Source of the DNA: Bolinopsis microptera | Taxonomy: Eukaryota > Ctenophora > Tentaculata > Lobata > Bolinopsidae | Direction: 5' to 3' | DNA length: 64,000 bases | Assembly: GCF_026151205.1 (NCBI RefSeq) | Contig: NC_087073.1 | Coordinates: 15,209,837 to 15,273,836 of the forward strand | Shown: one piece after another, positions 24,311 to 64,000 of the stretch | How positions within the stretch are numbered: position 1 is the first letter of the stretch | Layout: each line of letters starts with the position of its first letter | Translations under genes and position numbers: made by a program | Notes under the pieces: model-generated | Told to the model about the DNA's origin: nothing | Database searches by the model: none | Seen by the model: the letters and a program-made list of their open reading frames with translations, nothing else

Positions 24311-26690
24311 TTAGTTATCGGCGACTATGATTGCAGTGTAAAATTTGTCATATGAATTGTCGACGGTATAATTAGGGTCTGTTGTTATAGATGATAGTAG
24401 CTGTTTCTTATACGAATCACTAAAGCTTTTAACATCGGGCAGATTTCGTAGATCTGTTGGAACATTATTCCAACATTTTGCCCCCAAGTATTGAAAGTTT
24501 TTATGTGATGTTGATCTATTGACATAAAGGTTGCAGCTTTCGCCGCTCCTACTACCTCCTGATATGTAACTAAATTTGTTCATAAAGTTTGTAGGACAAT
24601 TGTCATGGATGATTCTAAACATATAATTTGACAGATGGAGTTGTCGTCTAAGATGGAGTGGTAACCATTTCATGTCTCTATAAACATTAAGGCTGCTCTC
24701 TGTTTTTGGAACGTTGAGAGCTATTTTGGCTACCTTTTTGTACAGAGTGTCAAGTTCAGCAAGTTTTGTCTTGCCAGCTCTACAATAGATCGTGTCTAAA
24801 TAATCGAATTGTGGCAACATGAGTGCATTGGCAAACATTTTCCTATATTTAATGGGTAGCAGTGCTTTACTTCTATACATGGCACCAATTCTCTTCATGA
24901 CCTTCCTAATAATATAATCTACATGGCTTTTGAAGTTTAATTTACTATCTAGAATGAGGCCAAGATATTTTGTCTCTTTGCACTCCTTGATTGTGAAAGT
25001 TACCTCATTACAATCAATGGTTATTTCATCATGTTGGTCAACAGAATCAAACAATAGGAATTCAGTCTTCTTTTCATTGAGTGATAATTTATTAACACTG
25101 AGCCATTTAAAGATTGTCATAAGTTCTATTTTCATGTTTATAAATGTGCTTCTGCAGGTTTGATCAAAGAATAGTGCACCATCATCTGCAAATAGAAAGG
25201 GCTTAGATAGGTTACAGGCATAAATGATGTCATTTATGAAGATACTAAATAATATAGGCCCAATGATGCTTCCTTGTGGTACACCACTCAGAACTTCTAA
25301 AAATGAGCTTAGATTGCCATTGATCTTAGTGCATTGATATCTACAAGATAAGAAGTTCTTAAACCAGGTTAAAGCAATGCCACCAATTCCATAATATGCC
25401 AATTTTTGAAGCAATATTTCATGATTCACTGTGTCAAAGGCCTTCTTAAGATCAAGAAAGATGATTCCTGGTTTATAAGACTTAGATTTACTCATATATA
25501 TTTCGTCCATCAGATCGTACATCAGATAAGTTGTGGAGTGATTTTTCCGAAAGCCATATTGATGCCGGATGAAAAGTTTTTTCTCTTCCATGTAATCAGT
25601 GAGTTGCTTGCCGACAAAGTATTCTATAAGTTTTCCTACAAGTGGAAGGATGGATATTGGCCTGTAATTATTAGGATCATCTTTCATTCCTGCCTTATGG
25701 ATGGGAGTTACTCTAGCTTTTTTACAAAGGGTTGGTACAACACCTGTATTAAGGCTCAGATTGACAATGTGGGTCAGTGGCTCAACTATGTGTGGTACAG
25801 CTTGCTTAAGTAAAAATAGAGGCACATTGTCATATGAGGCCTTGTCATTCTTGAGCGTTTCGACATACATTAGGATATCAGTTTCATTTATTTCTTGGAA
25901 TCTATCAAATGAGATATTAGAAGTTCTAGGAGGTAAAAAATCAGTAAAACTAACTCTTTCAATATTGGGGGCCTGATTTTGTAATCTTGATCCAACATTT
26001 GCAAAATGAAAGTTAAATAGCTCAGGATCATTCTCATTGATAGTTTGACAATTAGTTGTACCAGGGGTCATATTTGATGCCAGTTTGATAGTTTTCCATA
26101 TCCCTTTAAGATCATTCTTGGCACTTTTAACTTGTAGATCATCGATTACATTAGCCTTTTTGCAGGTTTTAGCTAATTTATTTCTAATATTTCTCTGAAT
26201 CTTGTAGCAATCCCAGGCCTCATTACACTTTATACATTTGCTACATGTACCACATTTATTGCAATTTCCATTGTCTCTCTTATCCTTCTTTTTACGGAAT
26301 TTCTTTAGAAGAAAATGTGTATGATTAATGGCATATAAAAGTTCAGTAGAAGGTTTATGTATGAACTTTTCATGCCTTTCTATGGTCTTGCAAGGGAAGA
26401 AGGTTGCATATGCCTGTTCAATATGATGACAAAGGCCAGCTGTGATAGCTTCAACATCTGTACTTTCCAATAGTGGACTGTAATCAGAACAGGTGTCTAG
26501 ATAGTCTAAGAATTGTTTAACATTACGTTTACAATGATTTCTAATTTCAACCTTCTCAAATTTAGGAGCTATAGGTACTTTACAATCTATCTCACACATA
26601 ATAGCTTGATGATCTCCAATACGTTCATCAAGAACAGAAGATTGGACAAAATCTGCATAACAGTTAGTGAATATTACATCAATAGTAGTA
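24311..26690 (-). mobile_element. LINE-3 here: CR1/L2-like non-LTR retrotransposon, 5'-truncated
   Basis: The minus-strand frame from 26599 to 24311 encodes 762 residues, and the same frame stays open upstream to about 26690. Upstream codons read TIDVIFTN and IGDHQAI, the end of an apurinic-type endonuclease. The reverse transcriptase motifs follow in order: YRPISILPLVGKLIE, QYGFRKNHST, FLDLKKAFDTVNH, GVPQGSIIGPILF and the catalytic FADDG. The C-terminus (MKWLPLHLRRQ, then CWNNVP) matches CR1-like tails. The polymerase frame has no stop, so the insertion looks young. The missing endonuclease N-terminus shows that it is truncated or was cut by the adjoining SINE. Confidence 0.9.
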
Positions 26691-26697
26691 GTAGTAG

Positions 26698-27090
26698 TAA
26701 CGGCTTAGTGGCTCAGTTGGTTAATCCGGGCCTGGTATTGCTTGAGGTACCAGGTTCGATTCCCGACTCTGCCACTAGCCGTGGGGTGAGCGTCGTCGAC
26801 GCTCAGCTAAGGATCCTGAGTGGTCTATGCAGCCCCCCGGTCCACTCAGCCAAATACTCGAGAAATCGGGTGTGAGGGTTAAATGAGGAGCTGCCCATTG
26901 CAGCAAAGTCTCGGGCGAAGAAAGTATGGTACGCACTACCTTAACCGTCACTGGCCTAATGTATAATTGAATCCTTCGGCTTCCTGTAATTGGCTGGTTA
27001 CACACTTGTGTAACAATGTGGCTGTTGGAATGTCCGAAGTAAAATAAGAGTTGAGATAGTCTGGGTAACATTGTCTCCACGTATTAGTTA
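26698..27090 (+). mobile_element. tRNA-derived SINE
   Basis: The head has a Pol III A box TGGCTCAGTTGG (26709-26720) and a perfect B box GGTTCGATTCC (26753-26763), 32 bp apart, as in tRNA genes. The acceptor arms do not pair, so it is not a working tRNA. The head is flanked by ACGGCTTAGTGGC and its near-complement GCCACTAGCCGT. The body begins with the hairpin GAGCGTC-GTC-GACGCTC and runs about 300 bp. It ends near the right border of the block in LINE-2. The family was not identified. Confidence 0.75.
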
Positions 27091-27093
27091 TTA

Positions 27094-30000
27094 ATTATTC
27101 TCCTCTCAATCCAAGAAACTGGCAGAAACCAGGAATACAAGAAACTGGACAACATGAAAACTTACGAGGACACCAACAACCAGACCAACAAAGGCTGTGC
27201 TGTTATGGTTCGAAATGATGCAATGTTCACCCAATTCTGTGACATCTCTAAGTGTTCAAAGAACATTGATACTGTTTGGGGTATGCTGTGTTGGAGTGGA
27301 AAACGGTACATAATTGGTAATGTCTATCTGAAACTGGACTATCTATCCGGTGTGAAGGAATTTAATGGAATGCTTGACAAAGCCTATAATCTTGCCAAGA
27401 AACACCAGTGCTCAGGAATTATTACCATGGGGGACTTTAATGCTCGCCACATTATCTGGAATGACTCAGTCAATAACAAATATGGTAAGTGCCTTGAGGA
27501 ATGTCTAGACTGGTCAAAGTTTAGTGTTCATGCTCCTTTATCTAGGACCTTTCTAAAAAATGGTAGCAGCCTCATTGATTTCTTCATTACATCGAATGAC
27601 CTAGACTACAATCTGGGCACTCCTTTCACTGATGACAAAGCCATTCTGTACAGTGGAGCCCCAGTAAGGGGTCATGTTCCTGTGACAATAACTATCAACC
27701 CCAGATGTCCCAGAGATGCCAAAAAATCGGAAAAGAAACTGGATCTATCCTCCATGAACTGGGACGACTGGACTAGTGATATAGAACAGACACTTTCTGC
27801 AGAAGCAATCGAATCCTTAGCTTTTGACAACAGTATTGACAACTTATGGAAGCTAATTGAAGATACAATAAATGAAGCTACAAAAGCAAACTGCTCACTA
27901 AAGCTGGTAACAAAACACAGTAAGCCCTATTGGACAAAAGAGCTGTCATCTAAATCAAAAGAACTAAGGGATGCGCTTGGAACCTACCTGACCAGAAACA
28001 CAGATGAAGCCTTTGAGAGGTTTCAAGCAGCAAAAGAAATCTTTGAGGAAACAAGGAAACAAGCATGTCAGCAGTTTATAGTGAACAAGACCCAAAATCT
28101 AAATGTAGCTCAAGCAAACAAATTCTGGAAAGACTTCAACAGACTTTTTAAGCCTCCAACTGACCAACAAGTGGAAGCTCTGGTTAATGAGGATGGGACA
28201 GTCATGACAGAGAATAAAGAAATAGAAAAAGAGTTGTTTGAGACATTCTTCATGGGTAAGCACATTGTAGAAAACATAGATAAATTTGATCAGAACTTCT
28301 ATAATGAAACCAACAAACTATACTCAGAAATCAAAGAGGATGGATTTCAGCCATTTGCTGATTCCATGGATAACTTTCAACACAGCTCAAAGCTTTACTG
28401 CCCAGTTACACACGGGGAAATCCTTGGTATAATTAAGGGAAATAAATCCACAGCAGGAAGTTTCGACAACTGCCAAGTTCATCCATCTATGCTCAAACAC
28501 CTTGGTCCAAACGTATTGCATGCCCTGAGTATACTTTTTAGCCTCTGCCTGAGAAATGGAAAATGGGTTTGGAATGCATCTAACATAATATTTCTGAAAA
28601 AAGAAGGAAAGAGCAGTTATGCAAAGCCTGGTTCTTACAGACCAATCTCAATCTCTTCATATTTAGGCAAACTCTTTGAACGGATTCTTGCATGCCGGCT
28701 GGAAACATATCTTTTCACTATCGGACTCATTGATAGCAACCAAGAAGGCTTCTCAAAAGGTAGAAACACTATAAGGTATCTGCACAGGCTAACAGCTGGA
28801 ATTAAAGGAGACATGATGAAAAAACTGACCGTTCTCTGCCTATTCATTGACTTCGAAAAAGCATTTGACTCGGTGTGGAAACAAGGCCTGATAGTGAAAC
28901 TATGGAAGGTTGGTGTGCATGGATGCTACCTAAGAACAATTGATAGTTTCCTCTTTGGGAGGACGGTAAGCCTCCTCCTAAATGGTTTCATTGGTCCTGT
29001 TAGGATGTGCCTCGATTATGGGCTGCCACAAGGCTCTGTTCTGTCACCAATCCTTTTCAAATTTTATGTGTTCGACATGGAGACCCTGTGTCAACTGTAT
29101 GAGCAGATTCAGGCCTTCAAATTTGCAGATGATGGAACCATCAAAGTGACTGGAAAAGATCTTGAAGAATGTCTCTTTTACCTAGAGCTGGCGATGGGAT
29201 TCATAGGGGAATGGACTTCTCAATGGAGGATGGTCATAAACTGTAATGTGAATAAAACAGAAGTTATATGTTTCCAATGCCAAGATGCTTCAGCTGTTCC
29301 CAAATCCTTTGATCTATGTGGAAACACCATCTATCTCACAGACAGCAGCAAAGTACTTGGTATAACACTTGACAGTAAGTTGAACTTCAAGCAGCACAGC
29401 CAGGATGTATACAACAAGCTAATCTACCGCTGGGTTTGTCTGAGCAGGTATACAAACCGTAATTGGGGGATGAACCAAAAGGTCCTAGTGAGGTTGGCCA
29501 AAACTGTGATGTTTTCCTCCCTCTTCTATGGCTCGTTTATCTGGCAAACTAATGCCAACATGCTGGAACTGAACAAACTTTGGTACAAGGTTGCAAAATC
29601 TGCTGTGGGAGCAGTCTTCAATGTTCAAAATGCCATACTAGAGGTCATCTTGGGAATACCCCCACTCCGGGTTACAAACAGAATAATATCGGTAAAGCAC
29701 TACCTGAAGGTATTCAGTAGTATACATATCGATGTACACCATGACTTCATATGCAGAGAGATCCGGAAACACAAAAATTCTGGGCCAGATGCGGGATGTG
29801 TTGAAATTTCTAAAGTGGAAGGTTGAAGTACATGCTGACTCTGTTCTGCCAGGTGATGCAATAATAATTGGACTGAATGATGCCTCGAAATTGTTCGAGC
29901 TCTCTAGGAAAGCCTGCCATTACACCAAGGTCTCTATCAAACAATTCACTGAATTCGTATGGCAGGAATCTATTAAGAACCAGTTACAAATGGAGGGCTG

Positions 30001-31052
30001 GTCTCAAATTCCCGTGGTGTCTACCACCCCCCTGAAGTTCCCTTATCATACTAGCAGAGAAACTGAGGTTCTAGTCATGAGCTTGTTTTACAAAAACAAT
30101 CTTCTAAACTCATTTCTTTTTGTCCTTGACAGACTGAAATGGCCATCTCCCTATTGCTCCTGTGGTCATGAAGAACAAACTGCAATTCATATACTGACTA
30201 GTTGTGGTCATGTTGACGAAGACCTTAGGGACCAAGCCTCATATCTTCTCAGTATTGGTAACGAGGTCTCCAATCTGGAAGATCTGGGTACTCCACACTT
30301 GGCGATCCTAAACTGCTCCAGAGATCCAAAGTTCATCCAAATCTGCAGTGAATGTGTGAATAATGATGACCTCAAGCTAAGAAGGAAGATCTGTATTTCT
30401 ACAGGGCCCACCCACGCCTAGCTGGGGAGTCTAGTCCCTACACTAGACGGCCAATGCTCTATCCATTGGTATGTACGCGGCCTTACCCAGGCCTGTAATA
30501 AATGGGGAGTCCCTCTTAGGACGACCAGTGCTAGACACTGTTTACTACTGACTGAATGGAAATCTACTTTACTCTTCGGATTGGTAGAACCTGTCTGGTT
30601 ACATGAACATTGGAGCTAGTTTTATATTAACTCACATGATATTATTGTCGACTTAGACTGCTTGGATGTATCACATCTCAACCATTGTTGGGTGTGTTAC
30701 TTTGTTTTGGGCTTCACTTTTAAGCTTTATTGATTTTATCTATAAAATTGCATCTCCATTGATATTTACGTAACTCGAAAAACTTTTTCTACCAAAAACG
30801 TTTTTGATCGGGAATCGTCTTTAAATTATTTTGGGGAATATTTTGACTTGATATAACGACGTCGTCGTAATGACACAAGTGACTGATCAACCACCTTATT
30901 TGATAGTGTTTTTAGAAATAAAGTATTTATATTTTTAACTTGGGGTGTAAATATTTTTAGGGTTTTTATTTTTTAAATTTCAGATCTTTCATACTATTTG
31001 TTACTAAAATGCTCATTGTAGCCTATAATATTTAGATTTTCATCATCATCAA
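27094..31052 (+). mobile_element. LINE-2 here: endonuclease, reverse transcriptase and 3' end
   Basis: From 27100 the frame reads SIQET (catalytic Glu of the endonuclease), MGDFNARH, SSLIDFFIT and GHVPV, the other conserved endonuclease motifs. Polymerase motifs follow: SYRPISISSYLGKLFE, QEGFSKGRN, FIDFEKAFDSVW, GLPQGSVLSPILF and catalytic FADDG. The frame stops at 29826, but the continuation is open in the next frame to 30421, which includes a C-terminal CSCG-x7-H-x4-C zinc-knuckle-like motif. A one-base shift therefore lies near 29732-29826. 30422-31052 is the 3' UTR, ending in a TCATCATCATCA tail at the 11-bp target duplicate. Jockey/I-like group by motif style; the clade is unproven. Confidence 0.85.
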
Positions 31053-31053
31053 T

Positions 31054-33660
31054 GTGGTAAACCCAAGGGGAAAACTTTTTCTGGACTTCATATCCAGTCT
31101 GAACCTTAGCATTCTTAATGGTGATACACTAGGAGACATCTTTGGGGAACCCACCTCAATTAATTACAATGGACACAGCGTTGTAGACTACGTAACAGCA
31201 TCCCCCATGCTAAGGGAATCGGTGCAAAGTCTTAAGGTCTTAGATCTTACGAAATTCTCAGACCACCGCCCATGCTTATGCACACTGAAACTGAGTCATA
31301 ATTATATAATTGATCCGGACGAAATTCTATCCTCACTCCAGCCAGCCCCAATGAAACACAAATGGGACGAGAATGCTTCAGAGAATAAACAGCAGTTCCT
31401 AGATGTCCAAAAAGAACCCCAGTTTGCAAGCAGAATCACGGAACTGGTTGAAGCTGTTTGCGTAAAAAAGGAGGATGTCATTAAGCTCAATGAAAACATC
31501 GTCGGCATTTATCGTGATATGGCTGATCAGGCTCTACCAAGACATAGAAAACATAAACAAAAACCCCTCAATAGGAAAACTCGGGGATACAAAAGGGCAA
31601 AACCGAAGTCTCCATGGTTTGATATTGCCTGCATCATCGAAAAACGTGAACTAAATCGATTAGCTAAAACATACGGTAAAAGTCCTCTTGATAAAGAACT
31701 GAGAGACAGCTACTACAACAAACGCCGCGAATATCGAAAGCTTGTGAGACAGAAGAAGGCCAAGTTCGTGGAATCTCTTTGTCGTGATGTTGACGAGGGG
31801 CGCGACATAAACTGGAGTCGCTTTAAGAAACTTAAAAGCTTCTCCTCAAATGGCACAAAGCTGGACGTTTTCGATATGATGAATGAAGAAACTACTGACT
31901 TCACGGAACGCAGAAAGACTGAACTTCGTGTTCATGAACTCGTGGAAGTTCTGGACAAAGATATCGAAATAGAGGAACTTCGGACCGCCATCAAAGGCCT
32001 TAAGAAAGGGAAAGCCATCGCCGAAGATAAAATCCTGAATGAGTTCCTCATTTCGTCAGATGAACCAATGCTGTCAGCTGTTCTTAACCTGTTCAACCAC
32101 TGTTTGAAACTCGGGGAGTATCCATGGACGACCTCTCTAGTTACCCCCTTGCACAAAAAGGGGAGTGTATACGATCCGAACAACTATCGGGCGATAGCTG
32201 TGGCGAGCAATGTTGGGAAGCTGTTTTCAACTATCTTATTACAGCGCCTACTCACATTCCGGTCACTAAACTGTCCAGACACCATAAACCAGCTAGGGTT
32301 CTGTAAAAAAGCACAGACGAGTGACCACATACTAACACTCTCAACTTGCATCCAAAAGTATGTAACGCAACGGAAAAAGAGGCTATATGGATGCTTCGTC
32401 GACTACGCGAAGGCGTTCGACTCTGTGTGCCGAGATTCCATGCTCTATAAACTCTGGGAGCTAGGAGTAAGAGGTCGATACTTTCAATGTATCGAGCAGA
32501 TGTATTCACATTCCTCAGCAAAAATCAAACTGTTGAACAGATTGTCAGAGACAATCGACATTCACTGTGGGACTGAGCAAGGTCACCCGATGTCTCCTGA
32601 GCTGTTCAAGTGTTTCATCCACCAACTCTCCCTAGATCTGGATAACGCTGAGGAAGTCAACGTCCCTGAACTGAATAATGTTAATATCACTCATCTCCTC
32701 TGGGCTGATGATCTTATACTTCTTGCCCTTGATCATACTGGACTACAGAAACTTCTAAACGTTTTACACAGTTACTGTATCGAATGGGGACTAACCGTTA
32801 ACATCGGAAAAACGGCAGTGATGGTGTTCAACCGTTCCGGGAGGCTCCTTAAAGAGAGTCTGACATTCCAACTCGGCGAAACCAACATCACATCAGTTCG
32901 AGAATATTGCTACCTCGGGATAACCTTTACCCTCAACGGTTCTTCAGCAGTAGCACAGAACAAACTGAAGCAAAAAGGTCTCAGAAGCTAATTCGACAGA
33001 GCTGGTTGCACAAGTCTAGCCAGACAGGCGTTCATAGAACAACGCACACTCAATCTGCCATGGTACAAAGGTATAGAAGATCTCCGACAAAGCCTTCAGT
33101 CAGTATCATCTCGCAGGTTGACCTACCCCAACCAATTCAAAACAGCACTACGTAGTACTTTTATTAACTGTTGGAACGAGGAGCGGCAAAACAACCGGAA
33201 GCTCAGTTTCTACAACACTATCAAAAGTGAATTTACAGCTGAAGCGTACCTGAACCTGCAGCTCAGTGGAGAAGAGGTGAAGCGGCTGGCGCAGTTCAGA
33301 ATGAGTGCTCATAAGTTCAACATCGAGACCGGTAGATACACCATCAACCGTGAAAATCCGCTCAGTCGCATTTGTAAGCACTGTTCTTCATCAGACCTTG
33401 AAGCTGTCGGTATACTGGCCGAACTACCAATGTTTGAGCCGATCATTGAAGATGAGAAACACGTTCTCACGGATTGTTCGCTTTACGACGACCTGAGGCG
33501 AAACACGGGTCAGCAGGCGAGAACCATGATCACCTCTGGAGCGGAGACCTTTGCGGACCTCTTCAAGGATATCCTATTGATCAGAGAAACTGCCAGATTC
33601 TTGAGTAAAGTGAACAAGCGGAGGTTCCCCCGAGTGACAGAAAAGAAAAGGAAGGACTAA
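31054..33660 (+). pseudogene. LINE-1 here: 3' part (endonuclease end, reverse transcriptase, tail)
   Basis: The frame resumes at GTG 31054, not a true start codon. It reads the end of the endonuclease (VVDYVTAS, SDHRPCL), then polymerase motifs NYRAIAVASNVGKLF, GFCKKAQTSDH, CFVDYAKAFDSVC, GTEQGHPMSPELF and catalytic WADDL. The frame is open to 33660 except for one TAA at 32989-32991. The 42 codons after it stay in frame and lead into a C-terminal C-x2-C type zinc motif (CKHCSS, then H-x4-C at HVLTDC). One substitution could explain the stop. With the 20.7-31.0 kb insertion it is non-functional. Confidence 0.85.
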
Positions 33661-35047: not shown

Positions 35048-36861
35048 ATGATGGACACCCAGATGAAACCATCAGTATCACTGCTGATTACCCTATTTGG
35101 TATGGGTAGCTGGATTGCTATTAATGGAGTTATGGCAGAGCTTCCTTTGCTGGTTGCAAAACTACCTGAAGGATGGAATCTACCTACATATCTCGTTCTT
35201 ATAATTCAGGTTTGAGCCAGTGTTACATTTTTATAGATTTATATTTTAAAACACTTGCTTGGTAATTTTTATCCTTCATAGCCCCCTCCCAGATTGCAAC
35301 ATTACCATGTTACAAAAATTATTTCATAAGGAGGCGAATATTGTGGCATGAAAAATTTGCCTTCTTAGTAAAGTATCAGACAAACGCTCAAATGCGTATG
35401 GCAAAATATTTGCCTCCTCATGATTTATTTGTTATTTGTGCCAGGGTGTAAACTGTAACTCCTTATGAAATATTTGCATCATCGCGCGCAGCATTGCAAA
35501 TAAATCATAACATGGCAAATATTTTGCTAAGAATGGCGCATATTTTGTTAGCGCAGCGATTATTTTTGTAACATGGCAATGTTGCAATCCGGGAGGGGGC
35601 TCTTCATAATGGTTGTGGAATATTCAAAATGAAGACGTAGTAATTGTTTGCGGTACATACAAGAAAAAAATAAACTGTATTGTACATATGTCAATATTTT
35701 CAGGTAGCAAACATTGGGCCGATATTTTTTACGATTATGCGTCACTATAAAAGGAGTTTTGCAAGTCTGAAGTACACTGCATACAGCATCCTCCTGCTAG
35801 GTTTTGTGACAGCAATTCTACTGTCACAATTCTGGGATAAAGTGGTTGAAATAGGATCCAAGAAGTCAAGTCTCCCACTATTATTCCTGTCATTCATATT
35901 TGCTCTTTCGGACTGCACTTCATCTGTTGTCTTCCTCACCTTTATGGCAAAGTATCCTTCAGGTTACATGGTTCCCTTTTATATTGGTGGAGGTATGAGT
36001 GGAGTCATGCCTAGTATGCTGACTTTAGCACAAGGAACAGTTGGCGGAACATGCAGTAATGTCTCTACCAGTGATTCATCTGATGAGCCCAGATTTGGAG
36101 TTAACTTGTATTTTGGTTTACTATCAATCTTTGTTGTCATCTCGGGAACTGCATTTTACCTGCTAAATAACTTGGATTTCAGTCGAAATGAAAGGTATAG
36201 TAACATACAACCAGATAGTCCCTCCATCCAGTCACCAGAGCAAGATGGTTCTCCAACTCTTGAAGAGAATGCTTCTTTGTCTCCAGATCCTAATGAGATA
36301 AAGTCTACCAACATTCGAGTCTATGATGTGTTTTTTGGAACAAGAAGTTTGGAGCTTACTCAAATTAAATGGACTTTAGTTCAGCTATATTCTGTCATCA
36401 TCATCGTTTCTGCTCTTGGTAATGCAGTTATCCCTGCCATATTGTCGTATGCCTGTTTGCCTTATGGTCCTACTGCTTATCATCTGGCTACTGAGCTGGG
36501 ACTTATGGCAAACCCAATTTGTTGCTTCCTGGCTTTCTTTGTAGCCTGTAAAAGACCTCCTATCCTTGGAATGCTGTGCAGTGTCTCAGTGATCTTTGCC
36601 ACAGTCATAATTTACACAGCCACACTGTCTCCGAGTCCTTGGCTTGTTGGTACCACAGAGGGGTCTGTCCTTATCATCCTTCTCAATGTCTTGTGGACTG
36701 GAACCATATCTTACATCAAAGTTAACGTGGCGAGTGTGCTGCAGCAGTACGGTGAGAATGCTCTCATGTTTTGTGGAATAGTCACTCAGTTAGGAGCATG
36801 TTTAGGTGCCATCACAATCTTCTTGATCAATTCCTACACTAATTCCTTCACACCTTGTTAG
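35048..36861 (+). CDS. SLC52A-like: Riboflavin transporter, SLC52A family, copy 1
   Basis: Exon 1 is 35048-35209 (54 codons). Exon 2 is 35704-36861. The join is phase 0 at Q|V and gives 439 residues, within the family's usual 440-470. The family signature [18 protein letters not shown] sits in TM1, followed by [16 protein letters not shown] in TM2. About eleven hydrophobic segments are visible, and a hydrophilic acidic loop around 205-245 separates the halves. This is a plasma-membrane carrier for vitamin B2. I chose the ATG at 35048 because protein similarity to copy 2 begins there; the frame is open upstream to 34925. The intron holds a MITE absent from copy 2. Copy 2 lies 0.5 kb downstream on the same strand, so this is a tandem duplication. 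Confidence 0.93.
35281..35600. mobile_element. MITE (320 bp) in the intron of SLC52A-like copy 1
   Basis: About 40-bp terminal inverted repeats: GCCCCCTCCC-GATTGCAACATT at the left and its complement at 35561-35600, with two visible mismatches. It is flanked by CCTTCATA and TCTTCATA, an 8-bp target duplication with one mismatch, as hAT-type elements produce. There is no coding capacity, so it is non-autonomous. Its superfamily is inferred from duplication length only. Confidence 0.8.
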
Positions 36862-37397
36862 AATCAGATACGTTTTAATGTTGACCCTCAAGAGCAGCAT
36901 TTTTATATTTTATTGACCCTTTTATGTTATTGCTAGACACACTAGCCTGGATTAATAACTGTGAGTGACCATCTCTGTTGGATAGTTATTATTTTATTCA
37001 TAAAGACAATTTAAATTATTCGTTTAATGTTTTATTATTAACTAATTATTATGTGATGTAATTATTATGTTTTGCTATGGTAATATTATCCTTGAGTCAA
37101 TGTGATTTATAATTGCTGGTTATGGTATTTATTATTCTTATGGTTTTGGTAGTTATAGTTTAATTGATTTCTTTAATTCACAAGGTACTAAACTGTATTT
37201 AACGACAGTAAGGCGCCACAATCAAATAATATAAATTTATGTGAACGGTCTTTAACCGTATTAAATGATAATTGTCGTTAATTTAATCATTCGAAAAGTT
37301 TGAGCTATTTCAGTTATTTTCAGTTACAAATTTGTTGGTTATATACGTCAATCCATCACAAGCTTAATTTATGTAACCTCACTAGGATTGGTTAACC
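36862..37397. other. Spacer between the two riboflavin transporter genes
   Basis: AT-rich, with no feature recognised. It must hold the 3' UTR of copy 1 and the promoter of copy 2. Confidence 0.5.
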
Positions 37398-38929
37398 ATG
37401 GCTATGCAGATGAAACCATCGGTATCATTATTGATTATCCTGTTTGGTATGGGTAGCTGGATTGCTATCAATGGAGTCTGGGCAGAACTTCCTTTACTGG
37501 TCTCAAAACTACCTGAAAAGTGGGATCTACCAACATATCTTGTTCTCATAATCCAGGTTGGTTTCGATGTCTTTCTACCTTAGTATTAACTTAATTTATA
37601 GCAGTAAATAAGCATTATATTTGTGGTTTGGTTGGGTACCACTGTGCTATGAAATTCTTCATAGACTACCCGTACATGCCTTTCAGAATGTTTCTTAAAA
37701 AATATATGTTAAATATCATCCCTGTTTCTATAACAACCAATATCTTGGCTGTAATGTATATGTTTCAGGTTGCAAACATTGGACCGATTATATTTACCAT
37801 TATGCGGCAGTACAAAAAGGATCTGGCTAGTCTGAGGTACACTGCATATTTGATCCTTCTGATCGGTTTTGCTGCTGCCATTTTGTTATCCCAATTCTGG
37901 GACAAGGAGGTTAAGATAGGGTCAAAGCAATCGAGTCTCGCGCTTTTATTCCTCTCGTTCTTATTTGCTTTAGTGGATTGCACTTCATCTGTGGTTTTCC
38001 TTCCCTTCATGGCCAAATACCCTTCGAGCTACATGATTCCCTTTTACATTGGTGAAGGAATGAGTGGTGTCATGCCAAGCATGCTAGCTTTGGCTCAAGG
38101 AACTGGGGGAGACACCTGCTACAACGCCTCTGGTAGTGCGTCCTCTGATGGACCAAGATTTGGGGTAAATGTATACTTTGGATTAGTATCTACGTTGACA
38201 GCTGTCTCAGGAATCGCATTTTATTTCCTTAATAATTTAGATGTGAGTCTAAATGAGAGGTATGACAACATTGCTGTGTCAAGCACTCTTCCTGCACAAT
38301 CACCTGATCAGGAAAGAGCTGCAACTCCAGAAGATACTGCTTCATCTGCTTTGGATCCTAGTGAGACAAAGTTGGCCAACATCCGAGTATATGATGTGTT
38401 TTGTGGTGAAAGAAGGTCGGAGCTTGTTGATACTAAATGGAATTTTATCCAGCTTTACACCATCATTGCCATTGTTTCTGCCCTCGGAAATGGAGTTATC
38501 CCTGCTATATTGTCGTATGCCTGTCTGCCTTATGGTCCTACAGCCTATCATCTGGCTACTGAGCTGGCGCTTTTTACCAACCCAATTTGTTGCTTCCTTG
38601 CTTTCTTCGTTGCCTGCAAAAGACCTCCTGTCCTTGGAATCCTGTGCAGTGTTTCAGTGTTCATTGCCACAGTCATCATTTACACAGCCACACTGTCTCC
38701 GACTCCTTGGCTCGTTGGTACAGGATGGGGTTCCTTCCTGATCGTCCTGCTCAACATTCTGTGGACTGGATCTACCTCCTACATCAAAGTGAACGTGGCA
38801 AGTGTGCTACAGAAGTACGGCGAGAACACGCTGTTGTTCTGTGGTATAGTCACTCAGTTAGGTTCATGTTTGGGTGCTGTCATCATCTTCCTCGTCAACT
38901 TCAAGACTAATTCTTTTACACCTTGTTGA
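37398..38929 (+). CDS. SLC52A-like: Riboflavin transporter, SLC52A family, copy 2
   Basis: Exon 1 is 37398-37556 (53 codons, ATG in the context aaccATGG). Exon 2 is 37769-38929. The intron is 212 bp and the join is phase 0 at the same Q|V position as copy 1. The product is 439 residues, the same length as copy 1. It has the [19 protein letters not shown] signature, complete with the Trp that copy 1 replaces by Met. The two proteins are closest in the C-terminal half ([17 protein letters not shown] is identical) and differ most in the central acidic loop and near residue 130-160. Role as for copy 1; substrate differences cannot be read from sequence. Confidence 0.94.
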
Positions 38930-54609: not shown

Positions 54610-56787
54610 GTCAAACAGAGTTACGTCAGAGAATGTATCATGTAAGTTATAAATACTGTTATTTTCACTTCAGTGCACAAGCCTGGTTAGCTCAGTCGGT
54701 AGAGCATCAGACTTTTAATCTGAGGGTCACGGGTTCGAGTCCCGTATCAGGCTGCTTGACTTTTGTCAACGGCCTCTCCACAGAAATACCTTATTTATAC
54801 TTTAAGTTTGATCTATCTGGGGATTCTAAATTGCAGCGAAATCTTAATTGTTTATCTAAGAAACTAAGAACACAACTTTCGGAGCACAAACCAAGTAACG
54901 AGAATCTACGAGTGAGATGAAATCTACTGTCCAGTGTCCACAGTTCGTCCTAACAGTCCCTATAGCTATCAGACCAAAGTTACTGCTAGCAACTGATTCC
55001 ATTACAAATGTAATCAAATAATTTCATGCTTACACAGTTCACAATTGTTTTCTCATAATAAAACAGACGTAATTCTCATCCCTATGTAGTTGATCACAAT
55101 ATCACCTATAAGCGCGATAACGTGTCAATTTTTGGCCGTTTAATTTGTGAAAGTACAGTTGTGGATGGAAAATATTCGTGGTATTGTGAAATTAAGATAC
55201 AATAGTAAGCAATAGTTGTATTGTCACAAGGAGACTATAAGAATGTTTTGATTCTGTATAAATATTTTAAGTTTTACTGAAGCATATCTCCCACGTGGTG
55301 TAGGGGCTAGCATCTGTGGCTTTCACCCACAAGACCCGGGTTCGATTCCCGGCGTGGGAACGTGTTTTCTCTTTTTTTTCTCTACCAAACTGTCAGCTAT
55401 ACTGAACCATTTGCAGGTTAGCAAGTGTTAGAAGGAAGGAACAACCTCCTTCCTGGGGCCTATTTTTCGGCAGGTCTTCTACTAGTCGATAGCTATTGCA
55501 TCTCTCGCATAGTTTCAGTAACTTGATTCTGTATCAGCTCATTGGATATCTCTAAAAGCCAACATTGATATCTGTAACTTTGGTAATCATTATAAGCCAA
55601 AATGTGACGAATTTTGCGTTTTGCAGGAAGAGGTCCAGGGACTGGATAGCCACGAAAGAGCGAATGCACATTCTGATGGTTGCAGTCCCTTGCCTTTACA
55701 GTCGGTTAGTTGCTAAGATATATTAATTGATATTTTAAATGTGCTTTTTCCCTAATTTTTAAATAGTTTAGTGTGGGATCTGGGATCAAATGTTTTTTGA
55801 TAGGAGTATTAATTGTCACATGTTTGTCTGGGAAATAGCGCCCCGCAAACTATGTTTAACTTCTGGGCGCTAAAGACATATGACGTTGAAGTATGACTAT
55901 TTGCGCGTACGTACCATCTTGTCTACATACATAAGTATAGCTAGCTAGATACGGCCACTGTACTCAGAAGGGCGATTTCAGCGATTTTAATCAGATACTG
56001 ATCATAATTCATAGGGTTACCCTCGGATTTATCATAGCGCGTCGGAGATAGCTCGGATTTTTACGCCGATTCACGATTGGACTACCCGGTACCCCAGGAA
56101 ACCGCCGACCAAATCGTTTCGCAGAGCGGCGAATGGAAGAAGGATCTGCCAATTCCAAGAGGCGATAGGATTTGCCCTCGGACCCGATAGGGAATTCGAA
56201 TCCTATTGGATCCGAGAGCAAATCCGAGAGGAGATACCTAGTATTTGAAATATCGGAACCGATATTATTGAAAGAAGTTAACTTCAGGATCAGATCAGCT
56301 TCATTTTAAGTTGATCCAAGGCTAACAATCTTGATATTTTATTATGTCGCCAAATGAGGGTGTGAGTACTGAGTTGGGGGCTATTAGCTATATCGGTAAA
56401 TGAAGCTAGAAGTGGATGCACATTACCATATCACTATCATTATTTTCCTTAATCTATAAAAGTATAAATCGTTATCAGAATTACGTACATTTTGGATGGG
56501 GCCGTTATCAGAATTACGTACATTCTGGATGGGGTCGCTGATTGTTGAACTTTGTACCAGAAGGATCTTTGCGACTTCCGGCTAAATCTCTTCCGAAAGG
56601 TTGATGACGTTATTGTCAATGATGATCCTTCATCAAGGTAAATCTCTTCCATATTCTAGATAACAATAATAATACTGAAATTGTATTAATTATTGTTGAT
56701 TTTGTTTCGTTGTTCACCTGTAACGTATGACAATGTCTAGTGTGTTTTATATTCAGGTGGTTTCGGTTGAGCAAGCAAAATGTCTGA
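54610..56787 (+). CDS. Multi-exon gene, unknown function (98 codons visible, start not found)
   Basis: Five consecutive exon-like blocks agree in phase: 54610-54641 (donor CAT|gtaagt), 54837-54911, 55627-55704, 56561-56637 (AAG|gtaaat) and 56757-56787, ending TGA. Acceptors are tcattcag, aattgcag, ttttgcag, tgtaccag and atattcag. They read QTELRQRMYHRNLNCLSKKL, then a probable coiled-coil (NENLREEVQGLDSHE), then KDLCDFRLNLFRKVDDVIVN and end RWFRLSKQNV. The first block needs a preceding exon ending in phase 1. No family recognised. tRNA-Lys lies in the first visible intron and tRNA-Glu in the second, both on the same strand. Confidence 0.5.
54681..54753 (+). tRNA. tRNA-Lys (anticodon TTT)
   Basis: 73 nt with a full cloverleaf. 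The acceptor GCCTGGT pairs with ATCAGGC (one G-T). The A box is TAGCTCAGTCGG and the B box GGTTCGAGTCC. The anticodon stem CAGAC/ATCTG (one C-A mismatch or shifted pair) frames the loop CTTTTAA. A TTTT terminator follows at 54760. No intron; CCA is not encoded, as in eukaryotes. Confidence 0.97.
55289..55360 (+). tRNA. tRNA-Glu (anticodon TTC)
   Basis: 72 nt. The acceptor TCCCACG pairs with CGTGGGA. The B box is GGTTCGATTCC. The anticodon stem TGTGG/CCACA frames the loop CTTTCAC. A T-rich terminator (TTTT, then T8) follows within 15 bp. Sequence matches the usual animal tRNA-Glu pattern. Confidence 0.97.
55361..56560. other. Intron and flanking sequence with GC-richer patch at 55980-56235
   Basis: Apart from the exon at 55627-55704, no gene is supported. 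The 70-codon minus-strand frame at 56009-56221 lies in a GC-richer patch with a repeated CCTCTCGGATTTGC/GCAAATCC theme (inverted GGATTTGCCCTCGGA and TCCGAGAGCAAATCC), so it is probably a repeat. Confidence 0.4.
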
Positions 56788-57740
56788 TCTTACAGACGAG
56801 AGTCGGGAGATTCTATAGATATCAGAGCGGCCGGCGGCGAGATTCTAGAACAAACCCATATTTTAAAGATGAAAGAACTTTATAGATTACAAAGCGAACT
56901 CGATCAGATATGTAAACACTAAACAGTTGGATCAGTTTTAACGATATGATACGAATACTATCTTGTTTTCAAGGTCATGTTATCTTTGAGGGAAAATATC
57001 TCCTGTTATGTTCAGAAAACGTTCCTTTTTCGCATTATATTTGATAGTTATATGTATAATATTTGAACTTACAGCGGTTTATTATGAGGGATTAAAATAT
57101 CGTTCAAAAATGAGCTCAGCTGGTATAAACATGATCTTCACGGTTAGTGTTAGTACCCAGTACCGGGTTAGTACCATGCAATCACTCTGAGCTTGATTTA
57201 GTTTTGCCCAAGGTTTGTTATTTATAATACTAATAAAATTATTGTGTCATTATTAATGATTAACGACTCATTGAGGTGGCATACTTATCACGTCGCAATT
57301 AACTAATTTAAACATTGAGGCTTATAACAGACATATTATACATGTACATATAATAATAGACATTTTGATTCCAAACTAACGGACGCCTTTTAAATATTTA
57401 AGTCAAGATGAGTACTGATCGGTGATCCATCGGTTAAATTTTATGTTTGATTTTATTCGGATCATGACTGCAGTAATTTCTATCCCATACCATCAGAATA
57501 AAAAACAATGGTTTTATATTATTCCACACGTAATCCTTACCTAATTCAAATGTAATCGTGTAATTTCAAACCGATAGGCAATAACTGGCATTGCAACAAA
57601 TGAGTGTAACATCTTGTGTACTCCGCAGTTTTAATAATCCTTATCTTACAGCTAATATGAACGACATAGCTGCGCCTCTTCCACTTAGACGTTCAGATAT
57701 CCCCCTGGAAGAGGCGTTTTTTATAACGGACAAACTCCTT
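56788..57740. other. Intergenic stretch, nothing recognised
   Basis: No gene supported. A 31-codon frame (ATG 57657) overlaps an inverted repeat, CGCCTCTTCCA / CTGGAAGAGGCG, at 57675-57719. Confidence 0.4.
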
Positions 57741-57884: not shown

Positions 57885-60800
57885 ATGTCGACCGAGGTGA
57901 TCGCCCCCACTCCTACTGATCTTAATGAATCTAAAGGTTCTGAAAAGACAGCACAAGCAAAGCTCGTGATAAGGTAGAAAACTATTCCTTATCTGATTAG
58001 CCCTTAACAAATTAACCGTGCCGCTAAAGGGGATGTGCCGCTAAATGCGGCGTTTCTTTTGACACGTGACAGTGGTTAATAAATATTCGACAAATTCAAA
58101 TCCGAGTAGCTATGTAACCTTAAACTAGATGAACTTGCAACGCCACCCCATTATATCGGCATCCATAATTACCACTAGCAAATCATTTTAGTCGGGATGA
58201 AAGAGTCGATTTTTGAGTTTCTCTGGCACTAAATGTTTAAAAGGATTTCTGAACGGAATATGGTACTTTGGGCTTTTTTCTACGAAACCCGACTTGTCTG
58301 CATTTTTGGGTCACTAAAAATTGCTCATAATTGGCCACGCCCTTTTACTATCTCCAACTATCAACTACAGAATAAATCCCTTCAGTTTACTAATTTTTAG
58401 ACATCTAAATATTCTCACGTTATTCACTTCTACACTCTACAGGGAGGGACATCTACGTGTAGAACAGGTATCTGCAGCCGAACTGAAGACGAACGATGTT
58501 GATAGCATCATCAAACTCAACACCAGTAACATCAGCACTGCTTCCGGTTAGTTTCATATCTTACTACCTCCCCTTTTAGGTTGATTTAGAGACGTCTCTT
58601 GTATTAATGAAAATATAATTGATTCCACCTTTTATCACTTTATCAGGGCTTTATCCTAACTATAAAAGTATAAAATATTTGATTACCACTCATGCCCTCT
58701 TTAGAAACGCAGACAGCCCCAGTACCTCCAGCAGCTCCCCTGGACCTGCTGACCCTGATGGGAGGGTTTGAGGAATGTAGCAGCTGGCTCCTCTCCTACA
58801 CAGCCTCCACCAACCAGTACTGCAGGAACGAGAACGATGTGTACAACAAGATCAAACGAGAGTTCTCTGTCTTCACTGAGAAGGAGGACGTTTTGAAGGA
58901 GCTCAGGGGTATTGCTGATAAGGTTAGAACTTTAATGAGAATATTGATATGACTTTTACTATTTCTGTCGCGACCGCTATTTGATTGCATCTTACTATAT
59001 ATAAAGCGAGACGATATATATGGTTCCGTGCAATTTTACTGACACCACGGCATCAACTTTAACGCGACTTTCCGCAAAAACCGTAAAAGATATAAAACTG
59101 AAACTTTTTTGGCTGGGTCAAATGCTTTAATGGCCTACAAATCAGCATGAAAAAATAAAAAATTGGCCAAGAACTAGGAGTTTCAGAGCCCAAAATTTGG
59201 ACCCCCAAGTGGTGTCAAAAACGCGAGTTAAATAGGTAATAATTATTTTAGTCTCTTGAGTCTTGACACCATTTTAGGGTAATACGGGTTCCTGCTAGTG
59301 TAAATAAAGACTAGCGTGATTCATTTTTACATATATATATAATAAAAGTTCATATTTCTCAGATGCCACTGCTGGAGTACGACGAGGAAGGCACTGACAA
59401 GATGTACAGAACAGCTCACAGTATCCGTTACCTCATGGACAGTTGTGTCACTCTACACTTCTTCATGAAGGGTCAGATCTTTTTAGCTTTACGAGGTAAT
59501 AAACTGTTAAAAGAGACCACCATAATCTTTCCAATAAAACAAATCTAGATTCTAATGTGAAATAAACCTGGAAGCCTTTCAAGAAAATGATATCATGTTG
59601 TAATTCTCAGGATCTGGTGGGGTAGAAAGAGTTATAAAGGAACACCACAAGTCTTGGTACGAGGACGAATCCTGGGAAGCTCTGAACCTGCCTTACGACT
59701 GTTTCCAGCGGATTCTCAAGGGTAAGGTTCACAAGGCAATGAACGGGGCTATTGCTGGGAAATATAGCAACTGGCCGGGAGTCAAGGAGTTCGCTCAGAG
59801 ACACACGTACGGTGCTAACGGACATCAAATCAAGTTTACTGAACTCTACAGGTAATGTTAGCCTGAGAATTTGAAACATTCAAAATCATAGACTAAGAAT
59901 TAACGCAAACATTTGTCCGGCATAAATTATGTAAGGTGTACTATACAATTTTATGTTGGACCGTCATTATTTATGACAAGAACATTCTTTATTTCTTTTA
60001 CTGTTTTTAAAACCTCCTCACGTATTCAGGATGATGAAGAAAGATTTCGCTGCTCCTCACGACATAATAAGACACATGAGAATGGAAGATGTACTGGAGT
60101 ATGCTATCACTACAGTCCCTGGTCTCAAGCTGGTCGGCCAGAATGAGGAAAGGAAGGTTAGCATTCAACAAAATAGCAGAATCTAATGTGCGGGAATTAT
60201 TATGTCCGGTTCATATTTGTAAGGTCTTTTTCAAACTGAACTAACATTGACAGCGGGTTGTTAGTAAGGGCATGATCAAATTAGGTACTGAGGGATCGAT
60301 GGTAGAATAGCTTTTTCATGACCTGTACAGTGCACGTAATACACGTATTTCTGAAATTCCAGACCAGTAATTAAGTAATTCATACAACTGCTTTAACTTT
60401 AATAATAATAATTGCTCAATAACGATTTCAGGTAGTAACGGATTCAGATGTGATAGACCTGGTGATGAAACTGAAACATCTCCAGCTATCAGGAGTTAAG
60501 AGCATCTCGAAAGAGTTCACCTCATTTCACCCCAGCTGTAGGGACTGGACCTCCTACCATATGACCTATCAGAAGTTAAACCAACACTTCCGGAATGTCT
60601 TGAACCCGGGGAATCGAAGGAGGTCTAAGTCTGCTCCTCAGGTACGTCACTGGTTACTATTATGTTTTACTGATTAAAAAGATGTTACTGATATTATGCA
60701 GTACTGATGAAAAACTTGATTCGGCAGTCATACTTAAACTATCCAATTTTTAAAGAAAATGTTTGTTCTTTTCAGAATCTGGTATCAAAACTGCATTAAA

Positions 60801-63501
60801 TAACCGCTTATTTCAAAGCCCTAGTTAGTTATACCCGATGCACTATTTAGATTTTTGAAAGCACACCTGTTACTAGGAGGAAACAAAGACGGAGATATCA
60901 TCTACTGTCCTGGACAGCTCCAACAAGATCCGGCACTCTTATCTAGCTATCGGTATCAACACTGCTGTGGAGAAGAAGTCACGCTCTAGATCTGAGGACG
61001 CTGATCGTCATGTAACTTATAATGAGCGAGGGGAACAGTCCAGATCTAGAACTAATTCCGGTTAGTTTTACTGATACTCCGTTATTACTCTAGAACTAAG
61101 CAACAGTGTAGAAGGTGTGATTTAGCAGTGTAGTTATCTATGGTGTTCGTGATCAATGAGATGATCAGATAATAATGTTTGTATTTGTATGCGCATTCCT
61201 TGTATTTTAACATACCTCCACTAACCCCACAACAACCCCTTAGAACGTGAAGACAACAGTAACTCGGTAGTGTACCTCAACACAGACAAGAGATCTGTAG
61301 TTCCTGTAGTAGGGTTACCAGGAACTGGTAAAACTGCTACTTTAGCTACCCTGCTGGGTAGAGCCCACAACAAAAACACTCCCTCTACAGGTGACTTATC
61401 TTTCGTTACTATCAGTATGCTTAGTTACTCATTCAGTATGCATTTGTATCCAATTTAAATAGATACACGCTCTGTGAATCTCTAGAAATTGATTTATTCA
61501 TATTTGACGTGTTAAATGAAGGTTGAAGCTATAACATAATGTACATAATGTACAAAACTTAATATCCTCAGTTTTGATAATAAGTTCCAGTTGTAGCACC
61601 ACAAACAAATTGCTCGAGTTTACCAGCGGAACTGTCCTGCGCGCCTGTCCCGCTATAAACGGGAAGACTAAAAAACGAACTATTTCGAAAACCTTCATCA
61701 AGGAGGACGACAATGCTGGTGAGGAATCAATTAACCTTCAATCAGAAATTGAGACAAATCTTAATGAATTGTTCGTACTCAATGAGTTTTCAGTCCCAAA
61801 CCTCCGTTTTATTTGAACCATGTTCAGAATTACATGTTTTCAGAGTTCTCGAGTGATGATGAAGAGGCTGTTAAAACTGCAAGCGCGGACAACGAATCCA
61901 CGGAGTTCGAAAAGGTGGAAGAACCCCGACACTCACCTATTGAAGTGATAGAGAAGCCTGACGCTCCTCTGGAGGAAATCGAGAAACCCTACTCCCCTAC
62001 TGATAGCGTTGAGAAAGTTGAATCTTTCAACGGAATAGACGGGGAAGCTCTGGAGGATGGGGAGATTGAAGAGGAAGATAAGAAGGTAAAAACAGGCGGC
62101 TTCTTCAGCCAAATTTTCGAATCCCTCACTCTCTACTACAATATTTTTAAGGTTCGCGTTCGTCGGGTAAATCCCAATCAATACTAAGAGTGCTTTTTTG
62201 TTCTCGGTTTCATTCAAAGAGCTGTGAAAGTATTAGCTATGAACGTGAATTAAATTGGATACATTGCATCTTCAATCTATTTTTCAGGATGTATTAGCTG
62301 CCAAGTTCTCGAAAGACGGAAAGGTTGAAGGAAAGGTTGAAGAAAAGAAGCCCAGAAAAGAAAAAAGATCAACGGAGCCTAAGATAGAAGATGAGTTTGA
62401 AAAAACTGAGCTTCCTTGGATGGTAAGAATATAATACAAATTAGTTTGAGAATGTATTTACTGAATCAGTTTCCTAGATATTATTTCTTTACGGATTTAT
62501 TAAATTGATGACCAGAAAGTTTGCAATATTCACATATTACATAATCACATTTTGGCCAATGTTTCGTAGAGATCACTTGAGACTTTGACTAAATGTAACA
62601 ATTTTCCATCCACCGTTTATATTAGAGTACCACACTTTTATAGCTTACTCTGACTCTCAGGTATACGACAGTGTAAAGGACGTGTTAAACTCGGAGAGTC
62701 AAGGCATGATAACAGTTCTACATTACCCCAACTACGAGGACATGGACGCTGAGATCATCTGTGGGGCTCTCGAACAGTTCACCTCCATCTCCAGCAAGTA
62801 TCCTAAATATCTGATCATAGATAATCAGGACGTCCTCACTCATCCTTGTAACAGCAAGTGAGTCTGAATTCTTGTACACGAAATGTGAAACTGCTCCCAC
62901 AGTAAGATAGTTAATTTTATTAAAAGTACCATTTTGTGCACTTCTGTAGACTATATTTTCTATTTTGTGCAATACTAAAAATACTGATCTGACCCATGTT
63001 GACTAATAAAACCACGTCCCTTGCCAGTACTCTAGATAAGCTGGTAGAAGATCACCGGGAGAACAATATGAGTGTGTGGGTGGCAGGAACAAGTCCTAAC
63101 TCTCTACCTATCAACCTACTGGACTACTCCACCCTTGCTATCCTTCATCAGTTCACCTCCAAATACTGGTCAGTCTGTTCACTTGGTTTGAACTGCCCTT
63201 TTTGGCGGTTTAAGATAAAGAGATAACTGATCACTCACAAGCGATGGTAAATCTAGATAGTAGATATTCAATTTGTTCAAATTCCGTCTTAATCAGTAAG
63301 TGAAAATAAGGTATTTCTCCACACAGGTATACGGAGCTAGCGGATCACCTGGCGGTTAACTCAGTGACATACCAACAATGTCAGGGACTCTCTCCTGGGA
63401 AGTGCATCATGGTGGCTCCCGGTGCCAACATGAACCATCCTGTACACTCCTCTTCCTACTGTTACCCCTGCACCATTGTTCCACCCAAACCCTTCAAGTA
63501 A
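57885..63501 (+). CDS. 15-exon gene: HerA/FtsK-like P-loop NTPase with novel N-terminal half (821 aa)
   Basis: Exons: 57885-57973, 58443-58546, 58705-58922, 59363-59471, 59611-59851, 60030-60156, 60432-60641, 60877-61060, 61244-61390, 61572-61718, 61844-62085, 62288-62422, 62661-62857, 63028-63168, 63327-63501. All 14 joins agree in phase and sum to 822 codons. Walker A is GLPGTGKT (451-458). A Glu/Asp-rich linker (about 526-606) and a Lys-rich part follow. Walker B-like YLIIDNQD has Asp705, with Asn706 where Glu is usual. Then come VAGTSPNSLPINLLDYSTLA, HQFTSKYW and SPGKCIMVAPG, the pattern after Walker B in HerA/VirD4-like NTPases (a TxxPxxLP motif, then xxHxF). Residues 230-300 (ELYRMMKKDF, MEDVLEYAITTVPGLKLVG) resemble a LOTUS/OST-HTH RNA-binding domain, weakly. 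A Ser-Arg stretch lies at 400-425. No membrane segment. Function unknown. Confidence 0.8.
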
Positions 63502-64000
63502 AGACACCCTAACCATACACTAAGAGGTATCTCGCCCTTCGTAGGGGGCCGACCAGACTTTAAAGGTGCCCAATGGATATATAAATGATTTGCTTTTTAA
63601 TTTCAAATTTTTGTGATGTATTTGTCAATTTGAGTGCTCTTTAATGATGGTATTTTTCCATATCGAAAATTCGCAAAAACTATTAAAAATCGTGTTTTCT
63701 TTCTCAATAACACTGTTTAATGATTTTAAAATATCAGATTTCCGGAGAAAGCGATTAAAATGGAAGGTCAATGACATTAAAATGAAGTCAATATTCCAGC
63801 TGTTAAATTTCGAAATAGTAAACTGCCCAATTCATGGATGCGGGCGAGAAATTCAGTCAAAACTGTACAATTTCATCTTCCAAAACTGGAAATGGGAAAA
63901 TATGATTTTCCAATTTTCTTCAGGATTTTGACTTCCAGTGCCCCAATTTGGTTTCATACCATTATCAATTAACTGACTAATTGGTTTGCGGGCAAAAATT
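63502..64000. other. Downstream sequence to the window end
   Basis: No canonical AATAAA was fixed near the stop. An open frame at 63644-63931 is AT-rich and Lys/Phe/Ile-heavy with no splice context; not called. Confidence 0.4.

Follow-up and report, generated by a model that had tools for sequence, protein, structure and literature searches.

Does the genome of the ctenophore Bolinopsis microptera hold a gene for an ATPase of the HerA/FtsK type, and would the product of that gene act as a motor? The question is raised by a 15-exon gene at 57885-63501 on the + strand of a 64,000-nucleotide stretch of contig NC_087073.1 (positions 15,209,837 to 15,273,836; this whole stretch is called the window, and all positions below are counted within it unless stated otherwise). 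In prokaryotes, HerA/FtsK ATPases pump DNA, process its ends and take part in defence against phages. An earlier reading of the window from its letters (the original prediction) had described a HerA/FtsK-like P-loop NTPase joined to an N-terminal half that it could not place. Our analysis favours, with reasonable though far from complete confidence, an animal host gene with a diverged HerA/FtsK-type P-loop domain in amino acids (aa) ~437-829, one that would probably bind nucleotide without motor function.

Homology of the C-terminal half to HerA/FtsK proteins

The comparisons support the assignment of the C-terminal half (aa ~437-829) to the HerA/FtsK type by sequence homology, reached via a bacterial bridge and going beyond the mere order of motifs. 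A tblastn search of plasmids gave three weak matches (E values of 0.1, 0.5 and 10), all three from Bacteroidota; in each, the matching segment was the C-terminal tract of a large ‘ATP-binding protein’. These plasmid relatives carry FDEAHKYM...IREMRHKGVSMMIASQDPMSLPTQIIELSSVVLLHKFNSPQW...LVPGEAYLWAT, for which the animal counterpart is YLIIDNQD...VEDHRENNMSVWVAGTSPNSLPINLLDYSTLAILHQFTSKYW...LSPGKCIMVAP; the LSPGKCIMVAP element (aa 793-803, 63388..63420, + strand) aligns with LVPGEAYLWAT. By BLASTP the animal half matched a Bacteroides HerA-type domain over aa 705-805 with 42.4 bits, an E value of 1e-8 for one pairwise comparison. With hhalign, the whole half scored 89.1% against a profile of the Bacteroidota type (built from the locus L093 and 16 sequences of the Bacteroidota-type set, 17 in all) and 88.8% against a wider HerA profile, in each case from the Walker B strand on; the best of 100 shuffles reached 2.6% and 0.93%, respectively. 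A further profile, A2, scored 94.4% (E 9.4e-8) against aa 660-829, over aa 725-806, which leaves the Walker B strand outside the match. In hmmsearch, profiles from a thinned set gave the animal protein 24.8 and 24.7 bits, where the best of 200 shuffles gave 0.6 and 3.5 bits and one reversal scored no higher. In the opposite direction, the bacterial domain (185 aa) had one match at E ≤10 in the 264.65-Mb animal genome, and this was exon 14 of the gene in question (E 0.0139, 31% identity over 51 aa).

The bacterial end of the bridge was compared with proteins of solved structure. Profile A1, built from three Bacteroidota proteins, had nine hits in the PDB, of which 9/9 are of HerA/FtsK type (best TdpA at 2.2e-5 and archaeal HerA 4d2i at 2.6e-5); among the archaeal and bacterial HerA structures that it matched are 4d2i, 8wiv and 8xau, the best five hits lying between 2.2e-5 and 3.8e-4. 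Profile A2 matched HerA-type structures at 4.5e-19 and up, although its nine sequences themselves include archaeal, Sir2-linked and phage HerA-type proteins, so that the bridge to the PDB via A2 is partly circular. The CedD model matched the C-terminal tract both of the animal protein (E 4.7e-4) and of the bacterial relatives (4e-7 to 5e-7). In direct searches with the animal sequence, phmmer of the half with its insert cut out listed no HerA structures from the PDB, the best PDB match of the C-terminal half by phmmer was to the P-loop of RFC (E 0.032), two phage records were found at E 3, and a search of viral contigs gave none. The HerA/FtsK likeness claimed earlier is thus borne out for the C-terminal half by BLASTP, hhalign and the genome search, and by the match of the bacterial relatives to solved HerA-type structures.

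A scan of GTDB with the bacterial domain returned 315 relatives, of which 80 were used; with two loci from a scan of viral contigs and three plasmid loci these make up a sample of 85 loci, all but one of which (L089, dropped) passed a motif filter. Against the animal half, 81/81 rows for scan loci (L011-L092, without L089) scored 36.6-47.4 bits, and L005, L006, L007 and L093 scored 35.8-42.4 bits. Among the sequences compared, the animal domain is by these scores closest to the large HerA-type proteins of Bacteroidota. With these (e.g. WP_070099500.1, L005) and with a Piscinibacter protein (L093) the tract from Walker B to the C-terminus aligns over ~100 residues, the best rows having 22-28% identity. 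In the Bacteroides plasmid locus L005 (1-6342), genes for a PP2C phosphatase, a Fic protein and RhuM come after that for a HerA-type protein of 1845 aa, an arrangement suggestive of a defence or mobile cassette.

Loss of the catalytic residues

The Walker A motif GLPGTGKT lies in exon 9 (aa 459-466, 61312..61335, + strand) and occurs once in the genome when written as a degenerate DNA pattern. The Walker B strand YLIIDNQD (aa 709-716, 62808..62831, + strand) and the SPNSLP...ILHQF tract (aa 747-767, 63092..63154, + strand) follow, so that the YLIIDNQD (709-716), SPNSLP (747) and HQF (765) elements of the original prediction are all present in the spliced protein. The last tract matches ASQDPMSLP...LLHKF of HerA-type relatives. 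Of the HerA/FtsK features, Walker A and the Walker B Asp712 are kept, and in the alignment the HerA tract retains its Arg, Pro, His and Gly. The catalytic Glu that follows the Walker B Asp and the sensor Gln of the [ST]Q.P tract are missing; at these positions the animal protein has Asn713 and a Thr. Since MAFFT leaves the animal sequence gapped at Walker B, Asn713 was assigned by eye, with IIDN set against VFDE; BLASTP pairs the two in the same way.

The Bacteroidota relatives, in contrast, keep both residues that the animal protein has lost, and the same loss separates it from the HerA structures. In the alignment, 87/87 rows have the Walker B Glu and 87/87 have the Gln that precedes the conserved Pro; the rows are the 84 filtered loci, selected with a pattern of which the Glu is part, together with L093, L094 and L095. 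In established P-loop ATPases the Walker B Glu activates water, and since this residue is replaced here, binding of nucleotide with little hydrolysis is predicted. The original prediction treated the motif set as that of an established type of ATPase and passed over the replacements of Glu by Asn and of Gln by Thr. Judged by these residues, the protein is probably a nucleotide-binding pseudo-ATPase. There is a parallel in bacteria, where passages of PMC8195603 describe conflict systems that include inactive FtsK copies.

The gene model

Re-derivation from the DNA gave a predicted protein of 829 aa plus stop codon, encoded by exons at 57885-57973, 58443-58546, 58705-58922, 59363-59495 and 59611-59851 (exons 1-5), 60030-60156, 60432-60641, 60877-61060, 61244-61390 and 61572-61718 (exons 6-10), and 61844-62085, 62288-62422, 62661-62857, 63028-63168 and 63327-63501 (exons 11-15), all on the + strand. 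The 15 phase-consistent exons predicted earlier were recovered, with GT-AG ends at 14/14 introns of 115-469 bases each, whereas the protein is longer than the 821 residues first given and its Walker A motif, placed before at 451-458, moves accordingly. The 8-residue difference between the models must lie upstream of Walker A, because the length from Walker A to the end is identical in both. Exon 10 joins in frame only from the acceptor before 61572; the alternative acceptors before 61591 and 61597 each break the frame.

Both other forward frames contain stops in every one of the 15 exons; the model frame meets none before the one that ends the protein. The exons have a GC content of 47% against 34% in the introns. 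A codon score, trained on just five open reading frames of the window, was positive for the model frame in 13/15 exons and placed it top of the three forward frames in 12/15 (the exceptions being exons 7, 8 and 15); as a minus-strand frame scored higher in 7/15 exons (2, 7, 8, 10, 13, 14 and 15) and tied in exon 9, the score gives the model weak support. When the protein was searched against its own 264.65-Mb genome, 15/15 matches were these same exons. The gene is apparently single-copy as far as this search reaches, given that it scores the best candidates only and reads assembly gaps as N. The gene's contig measures at least 15.27 Mb, and the frames around the gene look by eye like those of ordinary animal genes, which argues against contamination.

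Terminal inverted repeats were considered as ends of a mobile element and rejected. The window contains 15 imperfect inverted-repeat pairs of 18-24 bases, and the one that frames the gene (56856-56874 / 63871-63889, 19 bases, 79% complementary) is no better than the other 14. Some 160 bases upstream of the start codon, at 57673-57722, a perfect 11-base inverted repeat (CGCCTCTTCCA / TGGAAGAGGCG) with a 22-base loop is followed by six T; it had no match in Rfam at the gathering threshold.

Alternative explanations

If the lost residues were replaced by others, for instance by a shifted acidic residue such as Asp715 and a different sensor, the protein could be an active HerA/FtsK-type translocase that pumps DNA or RNA in the animal cell. 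Walker A, the Walker B Asp and four conserved residues of the HerA tract (Arg, Pro, His and Gly) are indeed intact, but a recount with the Glu left out of the filter found Glu in 85/85 loci and Gln in 85/85 loci at the two positions concerned, as in L093, L094 and L095, and we regard an active motor as unlikely. This count has its limits: all 85 loci carry the scan seed FDEAHKY, so that the invariance of the Glu is partly due to selection (the Gln was not so selected), the relatives counted are mostly of one phylum, the Bacteroidota, and eukaryotic relatives lie outside the sample. It is also rather unlikely that the domain is a generic AAA or SF1-like P-loop ATPase whose HerA-like tract is convergent. 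With the acidic insert cut out of the query, AAA_22 was the one Pfam family to be called, marginally at 27.7 bits against a cut-off of 27, and there were weak matches of RFC chains and SF1-type models, mostly at the P-loop; the AAA_22 match, however, stops at query residue 187 (the VWVAG strand) and leaves unexplained the stretch from SPNSLP to LSPGK, which is where the HerA match peaks.

A match to the PADLOC model mad8 (E 1.3e-11, 42.6 bits) would make the protein kin to Mad8, a component of the MADS anti-phage system. With that model, however, other loci in the genome score 42.4, 42.2, 41.5 and 38.7 bits, three of which (L008, L009 and L010) look by eye like ABC transporters, and matches occur in 14/14 control genomes, so that the model reports the P-loop only. 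The match was rejected as non-specific after this genome-wide control, and kinship with Mad8 is highly improbable. L008, at C4:14534800-14537200 of this genome, is ABC-transporter-like and has a mad8 score about as high as that of the protein described here. Lastly, exons 1-8 and 9-15 could be two adjacent genes wrongly joined, as the polar linker encoded by exon 8 and the derivation of the model from DNA alone would allow. The junction of exons 8 and 9 is nevertheless in phase, with a GT-AG intron of 183 bases; none of the 14 AATAAA/ATTAAA words inside the gene falls in that intron; and N-terminal extensions are borne by published eukaryotic relatives too, according to the parts of PMC10853773 cited here. 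Such a fusion error appears distinctly improbable.

Our preferred interpretation, a diverged and probably silent HerA/FtsK-type domain, has to be weighed against the limits just given for the residue counts and against a number of further points that tell in the opposite direction. The matches of the bacterial relatives to CedD and to HerA_Thermprot (1e-4) are below the curated cut-offs, as is that of the Bacteroidota relatives to Pfam HerA_C (E 0.009), and no HerA cut-off of Pfam or NCBIfam is reached. No Pfam HerA/FtsK model calls the animal protein (FtsK_SpoIIIE gives 12.1 bits against a cut-off of 24), a search of the animal genome with HerA_C found nothing, and the half of the domain that contains Walker A scores only 0.1 bits against the HerA profile. 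In the BLAST set, which holds three HerA comparators of other types, the phage, Sir2-linked and haloarchaeal proteins scored 27.3, 21.9 and 17.3 bits, about the same as the ABC-transporter controls (24.6, 18.1 and 16.9 bits). The C-terminal signature of the published eukaryotic class, hxhxxRxRhsxDsGx[ST], was absent from the animal protein in a pattern search. The presumed loss of activity is deduced from residues, and Asp715 could in principle substitute; what the N-terminal half and the insert are suggested below to do is likewise inferred.

The N-terminal half, linker and acidic insert

The N-terminal region (exons 3-7, aa ~65-374, 58705..60641, + strand) is without a usable family match, and the earlier description of this half as unplaced holds: Pfam, PADLOC, NCBIfam, PHROGs and PDB sequences yield nothing that can be used. 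No family was found in PADLOC or NCBIfam at E 10; Pfam gave P-loop matches only in one scan and none in another; the best matches in PHROGs and the PDB were at E 0.068 and E 0.7 (DotZ, by phmmer), respectively; and tblastn gave one match at E 5 in plasmids, a scan of viral contigs none. Folded alone, exon 7 gave three helices at a pLDDT of 56 and exon 5 a pLDDT of 45, both too low for use. A LOTUS/OST-HTH domain, suggested by eye, found no support: PF12872 had three matches in the genome at E ≤10 and none in this gene, in a search run exon by exon that could miss a weak member.

The linker encoded by exon 8 (aa ~375-435, 60877..61060, + strand) is polar and charged; 74% of aa 372-436 are polar, Gly, Pro or charged and 17% are hydrophobic. 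Between Walker A and Walker B lies an acidic insert (aa 527-658, exons 10-12, 61697..62419, + strand) composed to 33% of Asp and Glu and disordered by a simple charge-hydropathy rule. The frame would be lost if exon 11 (242 bases) alone were skipped, but would survive skipping of exon 12 (135 bases).

Other features of the window and genome

Genes for tRNA-Lys(TTT) and tRNA-Glu(TTC) lie on the + strand at 54680-55361. Three long reverse-transcriptase-like frames at 24314-32988 (24314-26704 on the minus strand, 27088-29823 and 31036-32988 on the plus strand) are LINE-like by eye only, and two adjoining and very similar multi-pass transporter-like frames at 35674-38926 appear by eye to be a tandem duplicate. 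Elsewhere in the genome, 17 matches to Wnt exons fall at some five sites spread over C1, C3 and C5, with none in any of 14 control genomes, which marks the host as an animal. Several features would point to a ctenophore. Wnt genes are few, as in Mnemiopsis, for which PMC2959043 gives four. One exon for a nuclear-receptor ligand domain was found but no match to zf-C4, in a search whose controls had no match either; ctenophore receptors are not known to carry the zinc-finger domain. Ctenophores have 13 chromosomes according to passages of PMC11797021, and C13 of this genome extends to at least 14.2 Mb.

Discussion

A eukaryotic class of HerA/FtsK ATPases, ‘clade-6’, has been published from fungi, Capsaspora, some plants and others; the traits that passages of PMC10853773 give for it are N-terminal extensions derived from winged helix-turn-helix (wHTH) domains, a 4-helical insert in the NTPase domain and the signature sought above. 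The idea of an undescribed system is therefore abandoned: the gene is a credible animal one, apparently present in a single copy, and its HerA/FtsK-type domain, of a known kind, is diverged and probably silent. The statement that such NTPases are rare in animals and mostly known from prokaryotes and fungi is consistent with section 22 of PMC10853773. Words starting with metazoa, animal or ctenophor do not occur in the main text of that paper, and no animal member of the class was met among the open-licence papers searched, which is a weak negative.

The animal protein resembles clade-6 in having a eukaryotic HerA/FtsK-type domain and an N-terminal extension, with no recognised nuclease domain in either, and differs from it in lacking the signature. 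Clade-6 has a 4-helical insert; the insert of the animal protein is acidic and, by composition, disordered. The comparison is with the published description of clade-6. The bacterial relatives form a link. An RPRVTKHGG-type tail is found by pattern in 76/84 of the Bacteroidota-type relatives, and 79/84 tails fit a loosened hxhxxRxRhsxDsGx[ST], with 0/84 in the form with Asp; the animal protein, in contrast, has no Arg after aa 793. To judge from the tail, the Bacteroidota proteins would belong to clade-6, and, one step further, the animal protein is probably akin to the clade-6 ATPases even though it fails their signature.

How might such a protein act? Through its P-loop domain it would bind ATP and self-assemble. 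With hydrolysis slow or nil, it would not be a translocating motor but would serve as a clamp or scaffold gated by nucleotide. The N-terminal half would supply the contact with the target, possibly nucleic acid, as in published relatives whose extensions derive from wHTH domains; the insert, acidic and disordered, would keep the protein off DNA or bind a basic partner.

More tentatively, a HerA/FtsK ATPase like those found in genomic elements of fungi and unicellular organisms and in bacterial defence may have been retained and domesticated in an early-branching animal lineage, becoming a regulator of nucleic acid that is gated by nucleotide but catalytically silent and that would be the first animal member of its class; we hold this broader proposal to be possible but doubtful. 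Its route into the animal could have been descent from the holozoan ancestor, as the class also occurs in Capsaspora, or else transfer. An ordinary, intron-rich animal gene that fixed a diverged copy without the catalytic residues would show the fate of such a motor once domesticated, and would provide an animal case for a class that the parts of PMC10853773 cited here name only from fungi, plants and protists.

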